The position numbers and the translations under genes were made by a program. The notes under the pieces are model-generated. The model worked only from the letters and a program-made list of their open reading frames with translations, made no database searches and had not been told where the DNA came from. Of a stretch of DNA of 64,000 bases, positions 4,564 through 16,422 are shown in pieces. Within the stretch, counting starts at the first letter, position 1. The number at the start of each line of letters is the position of its first letter. This DNA comes from Noviherbaspirillum sp. L7-7A. Lineage in GTDB: Bacteria; Pseudomonadota; Gammaproteobacteria; Burkholderiales; Burkholderiaceae_D. The stretch spans positions 3,348,001 to 3,412,000 of the forward strand of contig NZ_JAHQRJ010000001.1 in the NCBI RefSeq assembly GCF_019052805.1. The letters are read 5' to 3'.

Positions 4564-5607
4564 GGCTTTGTTGCGCAAATCGGGCAGCCAAGCGCATTGG
4601 CAGCAATTCGGGTAGGCTGGGTGCATGAAACCCGCTGCTCGGAAGTACCAAACGACGAACTGGAAAGCCTATAACGCGGCATTAAAGGCGCGTGGCTCTC
4701 TGCTGATCTGGCTCGATCCCACTATGAACTGGCACGGCCAGGCAAACGGTAAGCGTGGACGAAGTCCAACCTTTAGTGACGAAGCCATTCAGTTCTGTCT
4801 GAGTATCAAATGCCTGTTCAGCTTGCCGCTACGCCAGGCCATGGGCATGACGCAAAGCTTGCTGCAATTGACAGGCCTCGACTGGCCCGTCCCCGACTAC
4901 AGCACGATAAGCCGCCGGCAAAAGAAATTGCGCGTTGCCATCGAAGTCATGCCCACCACGACCGGCCTGCACCTGCTGGTCGATAGCACCGGCATCAAGA
5001 TGCTGGGCGAAGGCGAATGGAAGACCAGGAAGCATGGCGCTGATTACCGCCGCCAATGGCGCAAAGTCCATCTTGGCATTGATGCTTCCACACTCGAGAT
5101 TCGCGCGATGGAAGTGACGGACAACAGTATCGGCGATGCGCCTATGTTGCCCAACCTATTGGGTCAGATTCCTCCAGAAGAGCTGCTCGCCAGCGTCAGT
5201 GGTGATGGCGCTTACGATACGAAGGGCTGCCATGAAGCCATCGCACGACGTCAGGCCGATGCCATAATCCCGATCCGGAAAAATGCCAAGCTATGGAAGA
5301 TGAATCGCATTGGTGCCACGGCACGAAATGAGATTCTACGAGCGACACGCCGACTGGGCCGAACGATCTGGAAGAAATGGAGTGGCTATCACCGACGAAG
5401 TTTGGTCGAGACTAAGATGCGCTGCTTCAAGCTACTTGGCGAACGCATCATGGCCCGTGACTTTGATCGGCAAGTCGCTGAATTACAGGTCCGTGCCGCT
5501 GTGCTGAATCGCTTTACGCGCCTTGGCACGCCAATTACGGTCGCTATGCCATAAATCCATCTACAGCAAGGTTAACTCGTCCCTTACTTTATTTCTGCAA
5601 CAGAGCC
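4564..5607 (+). mobile_element. IS5-family (IS903-group) insertion sequence, 1044 bp
   Basis: Terminal inverted repeats are visible: GGCTTTGTTGCGCAAAT at the left (from 4564) and the inverse GGCTCTGTTGCAGAAAT at the right (ending 5607), matching at 14 of 17 positions. The left repeat closely resembles the 18-bp ends I know for IS903. The size and the single full-length transposase also fit that group. The flanking nine bases (left ATGATTAGT, right GTGCCGGGT) do not match, so the expected 9-bp target duplication is absent. This suggests a later adjacent deletion or recombination. Confidence 0.9.
4625..5554 (+). CDS. IS5-family transposase
   Basis: DDE transposase that cuts and rejoins the IS ends. 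The 309 residues appear intact. The catalytic residues can be placed: D120 in LLVDSTGIKM, D194 in SGDGAYDTKGCHEA, and E262 in YHRRSLVETKMRCFKLLG, the last being the Y-(2)-R-(3)-E-(6)-K signature. The N-terminal TNWKAYNAALKARGSL stretch is typical of IS903-like enzymes. With no frameshift and both ends present, the element may still be able to move. Confidence 0.95.
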   Translation: MKPAARKYQTTNWKAYNAALKARGSLLIWLDPTMNWHGQANGKRGRSPTFSDEAIQFCLSIKCLFSLPLRQAMGMTQSLLQLTGLDWPVPDYSTISRRQKKLRVAIEVMPTTTGLHLLVDSTGIKMLGEGEWKTRKHGADYRRQWRKVHLGIDASTLEIRAMEVTDNSIGDAPMLPNLLGQIPPEELLASVSGDGAYDTKGCHEAIARRQADAIIPIRKNAKLWKMNRIGATARNEILRATRRLGRTIWKKWSGYHRRSLVETKMRCFKLLGERIMARDFDRQVAELQVRAAVLNRFTRLGTPITVAMP

Positions 5608-9859: not shown

Positions 9860-10948
9860 ATGTCCACTACCTTCGCCGCACTCAAGAACGACACTTTCCT
9901 GCGCGCGCTGCTGCGCCAGCCAACCGACTACACGCCCCTGTGGCTGATGCGTCAGGCCGGGCGTTACCTGCCGGAGTACCGCGCCACGCGCGCCCGGGCC
10001 GGTTCCTTCCTGGGCCTGGCGAAGAATCCTTCCTATGCGACGGAAGTCACGCTGCAGCCACTGGACCGTTACCCGCTGGACGCGGCCATCCTGTTTTCCG
10101 ACATCCTCACCGTGCCGGACGCGATGGGCCTGGGCCTCTATTTTGCCGACGGCGAGGGGCCGAAGTTCGAGCGGCCGTTGCGGGACGAGGCGGCGGTGCA
10201 GGCACTGCGCGCGCCCGACCTGAATGAACTGCGTTATGTGTTCGACGCCGTGACCCAGATCCGCACCGAACTGCAGGGCAGGGTGCCGTTGATCGGCTTC
10301 TCCGGCAGCCCCTGGACCCTGGCCTGCTATATGGTCGAAGGCGGCGGCTCGGACGACTTCCGACGGGTCAAGACCATGCTGTACGACCGCCCGGACCTGA
10401 TGCACCATATCCTGCGTACCAATGCCGCCGCGGTGGCTGGCTATCTGAATGCGCAGATCGATGCGGGCGCCCAGGCGGTAATGATTTTCGACACCTGGGG
10501 GGGGGCGCTGGCCGACGGCGTCTACCAGGAATTTTCCCTAGCCTATATGCGCGAGGTGGTCAGCCGGTTGCAGACCGAGAAGGACGGCGTGCGCATTCCG
10601 AGCATTGTGTTCACCAAAGGCGGCGGCTTGTGGCTGGAGCAGATTGCCGACATCGGCGCGGATGCGGTCGGCCTGGACTGGACCGTGAACCTGGCTTCGG
10701 CGCGGGCAAGGGTAGGGCACAAGGTCGCGCTGCAGGGCAATCTTGACCCGTCGGTGCTGTTCGCCAAGCCGGAACAGATCGAGGCGGAAGTTGCCAAACT
10801 GCTGGCCTCCTATGGCACGCCGGCGGCAGGCCATGGCCATGTGTTCAACCTGGGACACGGCATTTCGCAATTCACGCCACCGGAATCCGTGACCGCCATG
10901 GTTGATGCAGTGCACCGTATCAGCCGCGCGCAGCGCGGACAGAAATAA
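9860..10948 (+). CDS. hemE: Uroporphyrinogen decarboxylase
   Basis: Haem pathway enzyme that decarboxylates the four acetate groups of uroporphyrinogen III to give coproporphyrinogen III in the cytoplasm. The 362 residues are full length. The N-terminal signature [16 protein letters not shown], the [18 protein letters not shown] segment, [20 protein letters not shown] and the C-terminal [14 protein letters not shown] are all present. No clear ribosome site precedes the ATG. Downstream lies a long non-coding region with DnaA boxes rather than another haem gene. Confidence 0.98.
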
Positions 10949-11731
10949 ACAGCGCTGGTACGCAGGCAAGAATTGTTAAAAACATTTTTTGCCTGTGCTT
11001 ATGCGACTTATGCACAAAATCATCCACCGCCGATTTGGCGCCATTCTCCTGGCCGTACAATGCGCAGGCGCATGATTTAATTGTCAAACCATTGATTTGT
11101 AAGCTGTTTTATAAAGAATGGCTGTTTTTATCCACAGGATTGACTAAAGCCGTTATGGCTGCTTCTGCAAGTTGCGCACATTTGTGCACAAAGTTATCCA
11201 CAGCCTGCGCACTGTCTGAATCTCCTTTGTAAACCGGGGCTTATGCGTGTTTGTTAATACGATGTTTCGTTGAACCCAAGAAACATGACAAAATTGCTGT
11301 TCCGTTGAGTTTATTGTGCCGCAGCAATTCTTTTTCACGCATGCCAATGTCGTTGTTCACCGATTTAACAGTGGAAATTTTGTGCTTGTGAGTAAGTCAC
11401 GACGAAATCGCCAAAAGCTGCGGCAGCGCAAGAGATGCGCTTGCTCAGCGCACAAAAAATAACGGCGGGAAAGCCCACTTATTCACAAAAACAGTATCGT
11501 GCACCGCAAAAAGAAAATATTTTTTGTCGCGTTTACGCAAATCTTAAGTGGTTGATTTTAATAGGGTCTTTTTTTGGCTCAGTTCGGTGCAGCGGCCGGA
11601 AAGCCGCATGGGATCTGGGTTTTGGCGTGTCAAGAGGGTTTTGTTCACAAAGTTATCCACAGGCGCGGTGCGTCGTTGAAAAACTGCTTAGTAAACCGTG
11701 AGTTAGCTCATTTTTTCAGGATTGGTCTCAG
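10949..11731. other. Non-coding AT-rich region with a DnaA-box cluster (candidate origin or DnaA-binding locus)
   Basis: A 783-bp gene-free stretch, far more AT-rich than its surroundings. Five plus-strand matches to the DnaA box consensus TTATNCACA are visible: TTATGCACA 11008-11016, TTATCCACA 11128-11136, 11194-11202 and 11653-11661, and TTATTCACA 11479-11487. Two of the perfect boxes are preceded three bases earlier by a near-box TTGTGCACA (11182) or TTGTTCACA (11641), making a duplicated composite unit. A/T-rich tracts at 11085-11130 and 11505-11580 could unwind. An origin, a DnaA-titration site or DnaA control of priA are possible roles. Confidence 0.6.
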
Positions 11732-13759
11732 GTGGCTCGTTTCAGGATACTCAAAGTAGCACTCGATACCCCTCTTGACTTCCTCTTCGACTATGGCTGG
11801 ACGGTGGAAGAGGGCATGCCGGAACCGCTGCCGGGCCAGTTCGCACTCGTGCCGTTCGGCCGGCGCGAAGTAATGGGGCTGATCGTCGATATTGCCGACA
11901 GCACCGAACTGCCGCCGGAAAAGCTCAAGACCGCTTTGGCCGTGCGCAGCCAGCTTGCGCCGCTGTCGGCGCAGTGGATGGATCTGTGCCGCTTCGCGGC
12001 GGCGTACTACCAGCGTCCCCTGGGCGAGGTCGCCGTGCCCGGCGTGCCCAAGAACCTGCGCGCGGAGAATCCGGTCTCGCTGAACCGGGCGCTGAAGAAG
12101 ATCGGCCAGCACAGGCCGGTGCCGGATGCAACGCCGGCCGGCGTGCCGGCCCTCAATGCTTCCCAGCGCGAAGCGGCCGACAGCATTGCGCAAGCCAGCG
12201 GCTTCGCGCCCGCCCTGCTGTATGGCGTCACTGGCAGCGGCAAGACCGAGGTGTACCTGCAGGCCGCTTCCCGCATCCTGGCCCGCGAGCCGGATGCGCA
12301 GGTGCTGATCATGATCCCGGAAATCAACCTGACGCCCCAGCTGGAAACCAATATCCGGGCACGCTTTCCCGGCCTGGTGGTGGCAACGCTGCATAGCGGG
12401 CTGGCCGAGGGCGAGCGCATGGTCAACTGGCTGACGGCGCACCTGGGCCATGCCAGCATCGTGCTCGGCACCCGGCTGGCGGTGCTGGCCTCGCTGCCGT
12501 TTCTCAAGCTCATCATCATCGACGAGGAGCACGATCCTTCCTACAAGCAGCAGGAAGGCCTGCGCTACTCGGCGCGCGACCTGGCGGTCTGGCGCGCGCA
12601 CCAGCTTGGCATTCCGGTGGTGCTGGGCTCGGCCACGCCGTCGCTGGAGAGCTGGCACCATGCCCAGTCCGGGCGCTACCGCCGGCTGGAACTGCGGGAG
12701 CGGGCAGTACAGGACGCGGTGCTGCCGGCGATACGCCTGATCGACATGGAGCGCGACAAGCCGGCCGAAGGCCTGACCTCCACTCTGGTGTCGGCAGTGA
12801 AGCGGCGCCTGGAGCGCGGCGAGCAGTCCCTGCTGTTCCTGAACCGGCGTGGGTATGCGCCGGTGCTCAATTGCGATGCCTGCGGCTGGGTCAGCAATTG
12901 CATCCGCTGCACCGCCTTCATGGTGCTGCACCGGCCGGAGCACCGGCTGCGCTGCCACCACTGCAGCCTGGAGCTGCGCATACCGCGTTCCTGCCCGACC
13001 TGCGGCAATGTCGACCTGCAGCCGCTGGGCCGCGGCACCCAGCGGGTGGAGGAAAACCTGCAACTGGTGTTCCCGACGGCCCGCATCCTGCGCATCGACG
13101 CCGACTCCACCCGCAGGAAAGGCAGCGCCCAGGCCGCGTTCGACAGCGTGCACAACGGCGAGGTCGACATCCTGATCGGTACCCAGATGGTGGCCAAGGG
13201 CCACGACTTCAAAAACCTGACGCTGGTGGGCATCCTGAACCCGGACACGGCGCTGTTCTCGCATGACTACCGGGCCAGCGAGCGGCTGTTCGCGCAGCTG
13301 ATGCAGGTATCCGGGCGCGCCGGCCGTGCCGCGCAGAAGGAGGGCGGCAGCGCCAGCGAAGTGCTGATCCAGACCCGTTATCCACAGCATCCGCTGTATG
13401 CCTCGCTGATGGCGCATGACTATGACCGCTTCGCCGACAGGCTGCTGGAAGAGCGGCAGATGGCCGGCCTGCCGCCCTTCCTGTTCCAGGCGCTGCTGCG
13501 GGCCGAGGCAAGGGAGCTGGAGATTGCGCTGGATTTCCTGCAGCAGGCGGCGACCTGCGTCGAGCATCCGGGCATCGTGATCAATGACCCGATACCGATG
13601 ACCATGACGCGGGTCGCCAATGTCGACCGGGCGCAGCTGCTGCTGGAATCGGGCTCGCGGCCGGCGCTGCAGGCGTTTCTGAAGGTGTGGATGGAGGCGC
13701 TGCGGGAGATAAAGACGCGGGCCAGGTGGTCGCTGGAAGTCGATCCGGTGGATATCTGA
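11732..13759 (+). CDS. priA: Primosomal protein N' (replication restart helicase PriA)
   Basis: Superfamily 2 helicase that recognises stalled forks and reloads the replisome. The 675-residue protein starts with GTG at 11732, giving the typical N-terminal DNA-binding part ILKVALDTPLDFLFDY. Walker A GVTGSGKTE is at residues 165-173, DEEH at 264-267, and an eight-cysteine zinc-binding region runs from about 381 to 430. The C-terminal helicase motifs (QMVAKGHDFKNLTLVG, RAGRA) are intact. The only ribosome site is a weak CAGG. It is preceded by the DnaA-box region, a fitting partner for a replication gene. Confidence 0.96.
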   Translation: MARFRILKVALDTPLDFLFDYGWTVEEGMPEPLPGQFALVPFGRREVMGLIVDIADSTELPPEKLKTALAVRSQLAPLSAQWMDLCRFAAAYYQRPLGEVAVPGVPKNLRAENPVSLNRALKKIGQHRPVPDATPAGVPALNASQREAADSIAQASGFAPALLYGVTGSGKTEVYLQAASRILAREPDAQVLIMIPEINLTPQLETNIRARFPGLVVATLHSGLAEGERMVNWLTAHLGHASIVLGTRLAVLASLPFLKLIIIDEEHDPSYKQQEGLRYSARDLAVWRAHQLGIPVVLGSATPSLESWHHAQSGRYRRLELRERAVQDAVLPAIRLIDMERDKPAEGLTSTLVSAVKRRLERGEQSLLFLNRRGYAPVLNCDACGWVSNCIRCTAFMVLHRPEHRLRCHHCSLELRIPRSCPTCGNVDLQPLGRGTQRVEENLQLVFPTARILRIDADSTRRKGSAQAAFDSVHNGEVDILIGTQMVAKGHDFKNLTLVGILNPDTALFSHDYRASERLFAQLMQVSGRAGRAAQKEGGSASEVLIQTRYPQHPLYASLMAHDYDRFADRLLEERQMAGLPPFLFQALLRAEARELEIALDFLQQAATCVEHPGIVINDPIPMTMTRVANVDRAQLLLESGSRPALQAFLKVWMEALREIKTRARWSLEVDPVDI

Positions 13760-14856: not shown

Positions 14857-16422
14857 ATGCAGAAAACAGCACGGAAACTGCGCATTGCCCTGCTTGCGGC
14901 CAGCCTGATGGCAGCCAGCGCCCTTGCCGCCGACCTGAAGATCGGCCTGGCGGCCGATGTCTCCTCGCTCGACCCGCATTACCTGAATATCGCGCCCAAC
15001 ATCAGCCTGTCCAGCCACCTGTTCGACACGCTGGTGCTGGGCGACGCCAATGGCAAACTGATCGCCGGCCTGGCGACTTCCTGGCGAGCGGTGGACGACA
15101 CCACCTGGGAATTCAAGCTGCGGCGCGGCGTGAAGTTCCATGACGGCAGCGAGATGACGGCCGACGATGTGCTGTTCTCGCTGGACCGGCCGGCCACGCT
15201 GACCGCCAGCCCGGGGCCGTTCACCAGCTATACCCGCCAGATCGTGGCCAAGAAGGCGCTCGATCCCTACACCGTGCAGTTAAAAACCGCCGCGCCCTAC
15301 GGACCCCTGCCGCTGGACATGAGCTCCATCTTCATCGTCTCCAAAAAGGCGGCGCAGAATGCCTCTACCGAAGACTTCAACAGCGGCCGCGCGCTGGTTG
15401 GCACCGGCCCCTTCAAGTTCGTCAGCTTCGCCCGCGGCGACCGGGTGGAGCTGGCCCGCAACGACCAGTACTGGGGAACCAAGCCGGCCTGGGACAAGGT
15501 CACCTTCCGCATCATCAGCGCCAGCGCGCCGCGGCTGGCGGCGCTGCTGGCGGGCGACGTCGACCTGATCGAGACCGTGCCCACGGCCGACCTGGCCAAG
15601 CTGAAGACCAATCCGAAATTCACGCTGGAGCAGAAAATCTCGTGGCGCACCATCTTCTGGCACCTGGACCAGCAGCAGCATGCCTCGCCCTTCGTCACCG
15701 ACCGCGCCGGCAAGCCGCTGGAGAAGAATCCGCTGGCCGATGTGCGGGTGCGCCAGGCCATCTCGAAGGCAATCGACCGCCGGGCGATGGCGGCGCGCAC
15801 CATGGAAGGCCTGGCGGTGCCGGCGTCGAACATCGTCGCGCCCGGCATCTTCGGCTACAACGCCGCGCTGCCGGTGGAAAACTACGATCCGGAAGGCGCG
15901 AGGAAGCTGCTGGCCGAGGCCGGTTATCCACAGGGCTTCGCCCTGACGCTGCACGGCCCCAACAACCGATACATCAATGACGAGCGGGTGGTGCAGACCG
16001 TGGCCCAGTTCCTGACCCGCATCGGCATCCAGGCCAAGGTGCAGACGCTGCCGCTGTCGGTGTATTTCAGCAAGGCGCGCGCCGGCGAATTCAGCATGGC
16101 GCTCCTGGGCTGGGGCACGCTGGCTGGCGATTTCGGCCTGCGCACCCTGGTTGGCACCCGCAATCCCGACACCGGCTGGGGCACCTGGAACTGGGGCCAT
16201 TACACCAATCCGAAGGTGGATGAGCTGGTGCGCTTGGCCTTGTCTTCAGTCGACGAGAGCAAGCGCGAAGCGTTCGCGAAGGACGCGGCGGCGCTCGCCC
16301 TGGGCGAGGCGGCGGTGATCCCGCTGCATCACCAGTACGCCAGCTGGGCGATGCGGCGCGGCCTGGTGTATCCGGGCCGGGTCGATGAATTCACCTTCGC
16401 GCACCAGGTCCGGCCGCTGTAA
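14857..16422 (+). CDS. Peptide ABC transporter, periplasmic substrate-binding protein
   Basis: Family 5 solute-binding protein (DppA/OppA type), 521 residues. A Sec signal peptide is visible (RKLRIALLAASLMAASALAA, cleavage near residue 27), followed by LKIGLAADVSSLDPHYLN, the family's opening strand, and WEFKLRRGVKFHDGSEMTADDVLFSLDR. It captures an oligopeptide or related ligand in the periplasm and hands it to the permeases encoded downstream. Start 14857 was chosen because the signal peptide begins there. It is the first gene of a five-gene operon; the exact ligand cannot be told from sequence. Confidence 0.93.
   Translation: MQKTARKLRIALLAASLMAASALAADLKIGLAADVSSLDPHYLNIAPNISLSSHLFDTLVLGDANGKLIAGLATSWRAVDDTTWEFKLRRGVKFHDGSEMTADDVLFSLDRPATLTASPGPFTSYTRQIVAKKALDPYTVQLKTAAPYGPLPLDMSSIFIVSKKAAQNASTEDFNSGRALVGTGPFKFVSFARGDRVELARNDQYWGTKPAWDKVTFRIISASAPRLAALLAGDVDLIETVPTADLAKLKTNPKFTLEQKISWRTIFWHLDQQQHASPFVTDRAGKPLEKNPLADVRVRQAISKAIDRRAMAARTMEGLAVPASNIVAPGIFGYNAALPVENYDPEGARKLLAEAGYPQGFALTLHGPNNRYINDERVVQTVAQFLTRIGIQAKVQTLPLSVYFSKARAGEFSMALLGWGTLAGDFGLRTLVGTRNPDTGWGTWNWGHYTNPKVDELVRLALSSVDESKREAFAKDAAALALGEAAVIPLHHQYASWAMRRGLVYPGRVDEFTFAHQVRPL

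Follow-up and report, generated by a model that had tools for sequence, protein, structure and literature searches.

The hemE-priA gap of a betaproteobacterium probably carries two tandem datA-type DnaA-inactivating sites

Introduction

The closest described counterpart of the locus reported here is datA of Escherichia coli. Passages of one source (PMC5742627) give the minimal datA as 183 bp with the same-direction DnaA boxes 2, 3 and 7 and one IHF site, at optimised intervals and with HU no substitute for IHF, and a passage of another (PMC4585315) describes datA activity as absolutely dependent on boxes 2 and 3 and the IHF site. Transcription of glyVXY is described as displacing IHF at E. coli datA in a passage of PMC10950094. 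The DARS sites are a second group of relevance: DARS2 likewise uses IHF, as stated in passages of PMC4245941 and PMC10380432, the former describing DARS2 sites as conserved in gammaproteobacteria related to E. coli and the latter DARS-like sequences as conserved in many proteobacteria. DnaA-box clusters of Bacillus subtilis and Streptomyces coelicolor are called analogous to datA in passages of PMC10950094 and PMC5742627, in which datA itself is treated as an E. coli locus. Within the passages obtained from the open-licence literature on datA, DARS, oriC and DnaA boxes at priA, a datA homologue is nowhere described for betaproteobacteria.

Results

The window (the whole stretch of DNA that was analysed, 64 kb, C1:3,348,001-3,412,000, where C1 is a contig) belongs to a genome of 5.22 Mb in three contigs. 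Its nearest HemE sequences come from Noviherbaspirillum, Keguizhuia and Herbaspirillum (83-87%), a kinship that suggests an Oxalobacteraceae-like betaproteobacterium as host; in the taxonomy used here, the betaproteobacteria are an order within the class Gammaproteobacteria. The gap of 783 bp (located at C1:3,358,949) is bordered, as an earlier note on this DNA had proposed, by hemE (9860-10948, + strand; TIGR01464, E = 2.4e-123) upstream and by priA (11732-13759, + strand; TIGR00595, E = 4.7e-163) downstream, hemE being co-directional. Its AT-richness was likewise confirmed, with 49.5% GC in the 1-kb bin 11001-12000 and 63.0% and 68.7% in the neighbouring bins. A search of the gap against Rfam families gave zero matches up to E = 1, and the idea of an RNA gene, which had come from the conservation of the gap, was dropped for that reason. 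A sigma-70 promoter scan of the gap showed none, and terminator-like sites were no more numerous in it than in shuffles. Elsewhere in the window, an IS5-family transposase (4625-5554) separates the atp genes from a PPK2-type polyphosphate kinase.

Both subunits of IHF, alpha and beta (ihfA, ihfB), are encoded in the genome, with scores above the curated cut-offs. The host DnaA is 51% identical to E. coli DnaA and retains, in the alignment, R334 and the key residue R285. The role of R334 was taken from a passage of PMC5742627.

All five + strand DnaA boxes claimed for the gap were found, at 11008 (TTATGCACA), at 11128, 11194 and 11653 (each TTATCCACA) and at 11479 (TTATTCACA), together with the duplicated composites at 11182-11202 and 11641-11661, in which TTGTGCACA or TTGTTCACA is followed by aag and then TTATCCACA. 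The five boxes are all forward, and an inverted box is absent from the gap. The motif TTWTNCACA would be expected 1.56 times in the 64-kb window but occurs 8 times, a count attained in 0 of 100 shuffles, and 5 of these 8 fall inside the gap. In the whole 5.22 Mb genome, TTATNCACA occurs 42 times, the five of the gap among them; at this frequency ~0.006 would be expected in 783 bp, so that five are far above chance. The motif also stands singly within genes, as had been pointed out, with TTATCCACA at 13378 (priA) and at 15924 (a solute-binding-protein gene), both outside any module.

Each half of the gap contains an IHF consensus site (11085-11097 and 11545-11557), overlooked in the earlier note, and with one such site per half the box cluster reads as two tandem modules. 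Their common layout is a DnaA box, 66-77 bp, an IHF site in one orientation, 96-97 bp, a weak box, 12 bp and a strong box. Module 1 (11008-11202, + strand) matches the datA-like pattern: the DnaA box TTATGCACA (11008-11016, + strand), the counterpart of datA box 2, lies 77 bp ahead of the start of the IHF site (11085-11097, - strand; CAAACCATTGATT on the + strand, WATCAANNNNTTR on the - strand). Counted from the IHF start, the weak box TTGTGCACA (11182-11190, + strand) stands at +97 and the strong box TTATCCACA (11194-11202, + strand) at +109; these places correspond to datA boxes 3 and 4, respectively. An additional perfect DnaA box, TTATCCACA (11128-11136, + strand), lies within module 1, and none of the other hemE-priA gaps compared has a box at this place. 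Module 1 ends ~530 bp ahead of priA. Module 2 (11479-11661, + strand) has a geometry of 66/96/108 bp, with TTATTCACA (11479-11487, + strand) as the counterpart of datA box 2, an IHF site (11545-11557, - strand; TAAGTGGTTGATT on the + strand) that adjoins the AT tracts flagged in the earlier note, the weak box TTGTTCACA (11641-11649, + strand) corresponding to datA box 3, and the strong box TTATCCACA (11653-11661, + strand), the end of which lies 70 bp ahead of the priA start codon.

For comparison, the E. coli MG1655 sequence was read directly at five regions (priA, datA, DARS2, DARS1 and oriC), and a relaxed version of the module fits only one of them, the datA region. There, the boxes that we take by their positions to be 2, 3 and 4 lie at L215:2745 (TTATCCACA), at 2907 (TTATTCACA, +97 from the IHF start) and, inverted, at 2919 (+109), with the IHF site TAACCTATTGATA at 2810 (+65 from box 2). 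In datA as in both modules of the window, same-direction DnaA boxes flank one IHF site, the IHF site has the same orientation, a further box position follows 12 bp on, and the upstream gene is transcribed toward the site (glyVXY in E. coli, hemE here). The spacings, 65/97/109 in datA against 77/97/109 and 66/96/108 in the window, agree within about one helical turn; the likeness was judged on boxes 2, 3 and 4 and the IHF site, datA having in addition a third essential box, the low-affinity box 7. Unlike datA, the window has two tandem copies. The right-hand boxes are swapped, weak at +96/97 and strong at +108/109 in the window with the reverse order of strength in E. coli, and both members of this pair point forward in the window, whereas datA box 4 is inverted. 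The site in the window lies between hemE and priA, ~37 kb from an oriC candidate, whereas datA lies between glyVXY and queG, ~467 kb from oriC.

The earlier note had made its proposal depend on conservation of the boxes in relatives, and they are conserved. From 80 named hemE loci, 10 of which had no priA found after hemE, 70 named gaps were obtained, making 71 with the window. These 71 gaps hold 204 boxes against 6.3 expected from dinucleotide shuffles (largest 12), and 104 IHF consensus sites in either orientation against 2.5 expected (largest 6); boxes are far sparser in the remaining parts of these loci, where 0 to 4 occur. One orientation is shared by 82 of the 104 IHF sites, and in 71 of these 82 a forward box follows at +96 to +98 or +107 to +112. 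The full module is present in 47 of the 70 named gaps, an IHF site with a right-hand box in 59, and at least two such units in 9; the 11 remaining named gaps, in which no IHF consensus precedes a consensus box at the proper spacing, comprise 4 with a one-mismatch site and 7 with none. A Roseateles gap (L048) has three units of an IHF site and box pair and a Hydrogenophaga gap (L064) a doubled layout, so that tandem copies are not confined to Oxalobacteraceae.

Distances from the upstream box to the IHF site cluster at 56-57, 66-69 and 75-79 bp. The best period of 57 such distances is 10.4 bp (resultant 0.79 at 10.5 bp), and steps of ~10.5 bp would follow from a need for the proteins to lie opposite one another across a bend. 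The degenerate box 12 bp before the strong box matches on average 7.26 of 9 letters in 70 modules of hemE-priA gaps and 7.31 of 9 in 29 modules, 28 from outside the order and one from an order genome (L212); the match is 4.3 of 9 or less at all the other offsets between -30 and +19. Taken alone, the 29-module set has a best period of 11.4 bp, not 10.5, and its genomes, like those of the priA-neighbourhood set below, were picked by pattern match, so that the spacing range is partly preset. Since the genomes share ancestry, the counts and the periodicity are not independent trials, and kinship inflates p values.

The strict pattern (box-N44..72-IHF-N88..102-box) was found in 96 of 399 genomes of the order, the other 303 not matching, and in 46 of 281 genomes of the class, 43 of them outside the order. 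A backwards control pattern gave 0 matches in every row printed for the order and class sets, and flipping the IHF site gave 0 of 281 in the same class genomes. When the pattern was widened to the E. coli spacing, it matched 28 of 299 genomes drawn from the phylum, with 0 among the 178 genomes outside the class. As a positive control, genome G803 matched between queG and orn, the protein genes that flank datA in E. coli. The genome under study has only two copies, both in the hemE-priA gap; some genomes carry 2-4 copies, and three (G592, G464 and G871) have three or four modules at several places. Sites of the same build recur across beta- and gammaproteobacteria.

The neighbourhood of priA was analysed in 80 of the 138 pattern-bearing relatives (43 outside the order, and 37 of the 95 inside), of which G475 was left out for having no priA row, leaving 79 in which priA was listed. 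In 45 of these (25 of 37 inside the order, 20 of 42 outside), the module precedes the helicase part of priA by at most 3 kb on the same strand, and 17 further order genomes, outside that 79, have it between hemE and priA; 34 of the 79 have no copy at priA. In gaps that have a box, the last one ends a median of 97 bp (range 38-481) ahead of the inferred priA start. Copies away from priA adjoin pyrG and a TatD-like gene, proS, parE, a PcrA-like helicase gene, queG-orn and, by eye, aroE. In two genomes of the same family, at L148 (G056) and L234 (G354), the module is upstream of a UvrD/PcrA-like helicase instead of priA, a call made by family match in L234 and by eye in L148. Distances to mnmG were taken in 28 genomes with mnmG located, contigs being treated as circular: the module is at most 31 kb away in 8 (G000, G007, G142, G064, G102, G225, G076 and G031) and in the other 20 the distance ranges from roughly 140 kb to over 1.4 Mb. 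With 45 of 79 at priA against 8 of 28 near mnmG, linkage of the module to priA is more frequent than its linkage to the origin.

The earlier note had proposed checking whether the GC-skew minimum falls at the gap. It lies elsewhere, at C1:3,247 kb of the 452 kb covered, in a skew noisy enough to make this weak evidence, and KOPS-like sites and a relative were therefore used as well. Forward and reverse KOPS-like sites number 3 and 22 at 3,100-3,260 kb, 13 and 1 at 3,260-3,360 kb, and 18 and 9 beyond. If the gap (3,359 kb) were the origin, the reverse sense would be expected to its left, where 13 are forward and 1 reverse; the gap is thus not at a switch. The GC-skew minimum and the KOPS switch are ~40 kb left of dnaA (3,247 vs 3,289 kb), perhaps through a rearrangement. 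The dnaA gene, which the earlier note had wanted placed, is at C1:3,288.7-3,290.1 kb on the minus strand, separate from the site and within 71 kb of it; mnmG (C1:3,340 kb) and a ParB-like gene (3,344 kb; nucleoid-occlusion family match below cut-off) are within 20 kb of the gap. In the relative G007, with two contig ends treated as joined and 27 kb at a contig end outside the sample, the modules have negative GC skew to either side, and its lowest sampled point is at ~C1:30 kb; the KOPS counts of G007 turn to forward nowhere in the sample and hence give no help.

A CTA repeat is a mark of the DnaA-trio. The only box-plus-CTACTA repeat in 452 kb is at C1:3,322,374, where TTATCCACA is followed after 21 bp by CTACTACTA, and this is the best candidate for oriC; no DnaA-trio-like (CTA) repeat was seen in the gap. 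Of 200 order genomes, 6 have the box-plus-CTA-repeat pattern, against 2 of 200 for the backwards control. In 4 of the 6, with mnmG located (G000, G007, G056 and G178), it lies 10-18 kb from mnmG; G007 has 43 kb between it and the modules. The probable oriC, outside the window, spans C1:3,322,218-3,323,490 (L011:14218-15490), with inverted boxes, an IHF-like site and TTATCCACA with CTA repeats flanking a methylthioadenosine nucleosidase gene on both sides, 18 kb before mnmG. An assignment of C1:3,322 kb as the mnmG promoter was rejected, the next long gene being choline-dehydrogenase-like and mnmG 18 kb further.

Discussion

The hemE-priA gap of this betaproteobacterium is best read, as we judge it from the sequence, as probably two tandem datA-type DnaA-inactivating (DDAH) sites. 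The module architecture is well supported; its geometry, IHF orientation, phasing and conservation, and the IHF and DnaA of the host, are all read from sequence, and from these we infer the DDAH activity. IHF would bind the module and bend the DNA, and the bend would bring the DnaA bound at the far box up to the DnaA bound at the weak/strong pair, head-to-tail. This head-to-tail contact would trigger hydrolysis of DnaA-bound ATP and so may restrain re-initiation at oriC, probably ~37 kb away. Replication of the site would follow closely on that of oriC, and we propose that extra copies of it would therefore accumulate at the very time when DnaA has to be switched off. By analogy with glyVXY at datA, read-through from the co-directional hemE could displace IHF.

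The position of the modules could also point to a DnaA/IHF operator of priA, in which IHF would loop DnaA on the far box to promoter-proximal DnaA and repress or activate priA, tying the level of the restart helicase to that of DnaA-ATP. The same-strand location just before priA in 45 of the 79 genomes, the 17 further order genomes with the module between hemE and priA, and the short distance from the last box to the inferred priA start (70 bp in the window) are in line with this; however, a priA-only operator, an early leading idea, was dropped once 34 of the 79 genomes proved to lack a copy at that gene, and copies at other genes, two to four copies in some genomes, and the ~530 bp between module 1 and priA also argue against it. 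Moreover, E. coli datA is not at priA, no DnaA box was found in 4.5 kb around E. coli priA, and the gap showed no sigma-70-like promoter. We therefore regard an operator in place of a datA-type site as unlikely, although the datA role and priA control could both hold. Less probable still is that the gap serves to regenerate DnaA-ATP, as a DARS-type site, or does no more than titrate DnaA. The gap resembles DARS1 and DARS2 in being a non-coding DnaA-box cluster outside oriC, its IHF sites recall DARS2, which uses IHF (passages of PMC4245941 and PMC10380432), and in the gaps of 12 relatives (L024, L025, L029, L031, L032, L033, L036, L037, L040, L041, L045 and L047) a strong box is followed by an inverted box 14 bp on, the spacing of the E. 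coli bioD-uvrB (DARS1) pair. No such pair is present in the window; the E. coli bioD-uvrB pair is inverted (L217:3108/3122), in line with the general core layout of DARS sites, whereas the five boxes of the window are all forward. As for titration, the conserved phasing and IHF orientation exceed what it would need.

The earlier note had offered the gap as a replication origin or a DnaA regulatory locus, and only the second half of this stands, on the datA geometry; with no strand switch at the gap, it is probably not a replication origin. The gap does share DnaA boxes, an IHF site and AT-richness with oriC, its boxes are dense, dnaA is within 71 kb, and mnmG and the ParB-like gene are within 20 kb; for Burkholderia cenocepacia, a passage of PMC4948915 calls the exact position of oriC unclear and mentions a second DnaA cluster. 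Against these points stand the absence of a KOPS-like switch at the gap in its own genome and of a GC-skew switch at the modules in G007, the absence from the gap of a DnaA-trio-like repeat, the sole box-plus-CTACTA repeat in 452 kb being that at C1:3,322,374, and the module lying more than 1 Mb from mnmG in several genomes. In Cupriavidus metallidurans, the skew switch is placed beside three perfect boxes ~90 kb from dnaA in a passage of PMC2864759. That the gap is the chromosomal origin or a second origin is accordingly the least likely of the readings, and we consider it very improbable.

A site of the datA kind is already known; what looks new, within the open-licence literature, is its tandem form with swapped boxes and a link to priA, together with its spread through the class. 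We tentatively suggest that datA may be an ancient control site shared by the beta/gammaproteobacterial class as a whole and not an enterobacterial peculiarity, a possibility we rate somewhat below even: it would mostly lie directly upstream of priA, the E. coli site at queG would be a relocated copy, one IHF loop at priA may both inactivate DnaA and set the level of the restart helicase, and some lineages, including this one, would have doubled the site in tandem.

The modules provide a portable signature, box - IHF - weak box - 12 bp - box, with one IHF orientation and helical phasing, which would let DDAH be sought throughout the whole class and would help explain the origin-like DnaA clusters of betaproteobacteria. 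The finding also raises the question of why the site prefers priA, and makes the generality of DnaA-ATP hydrolysis by a chromosomal site directly testable.
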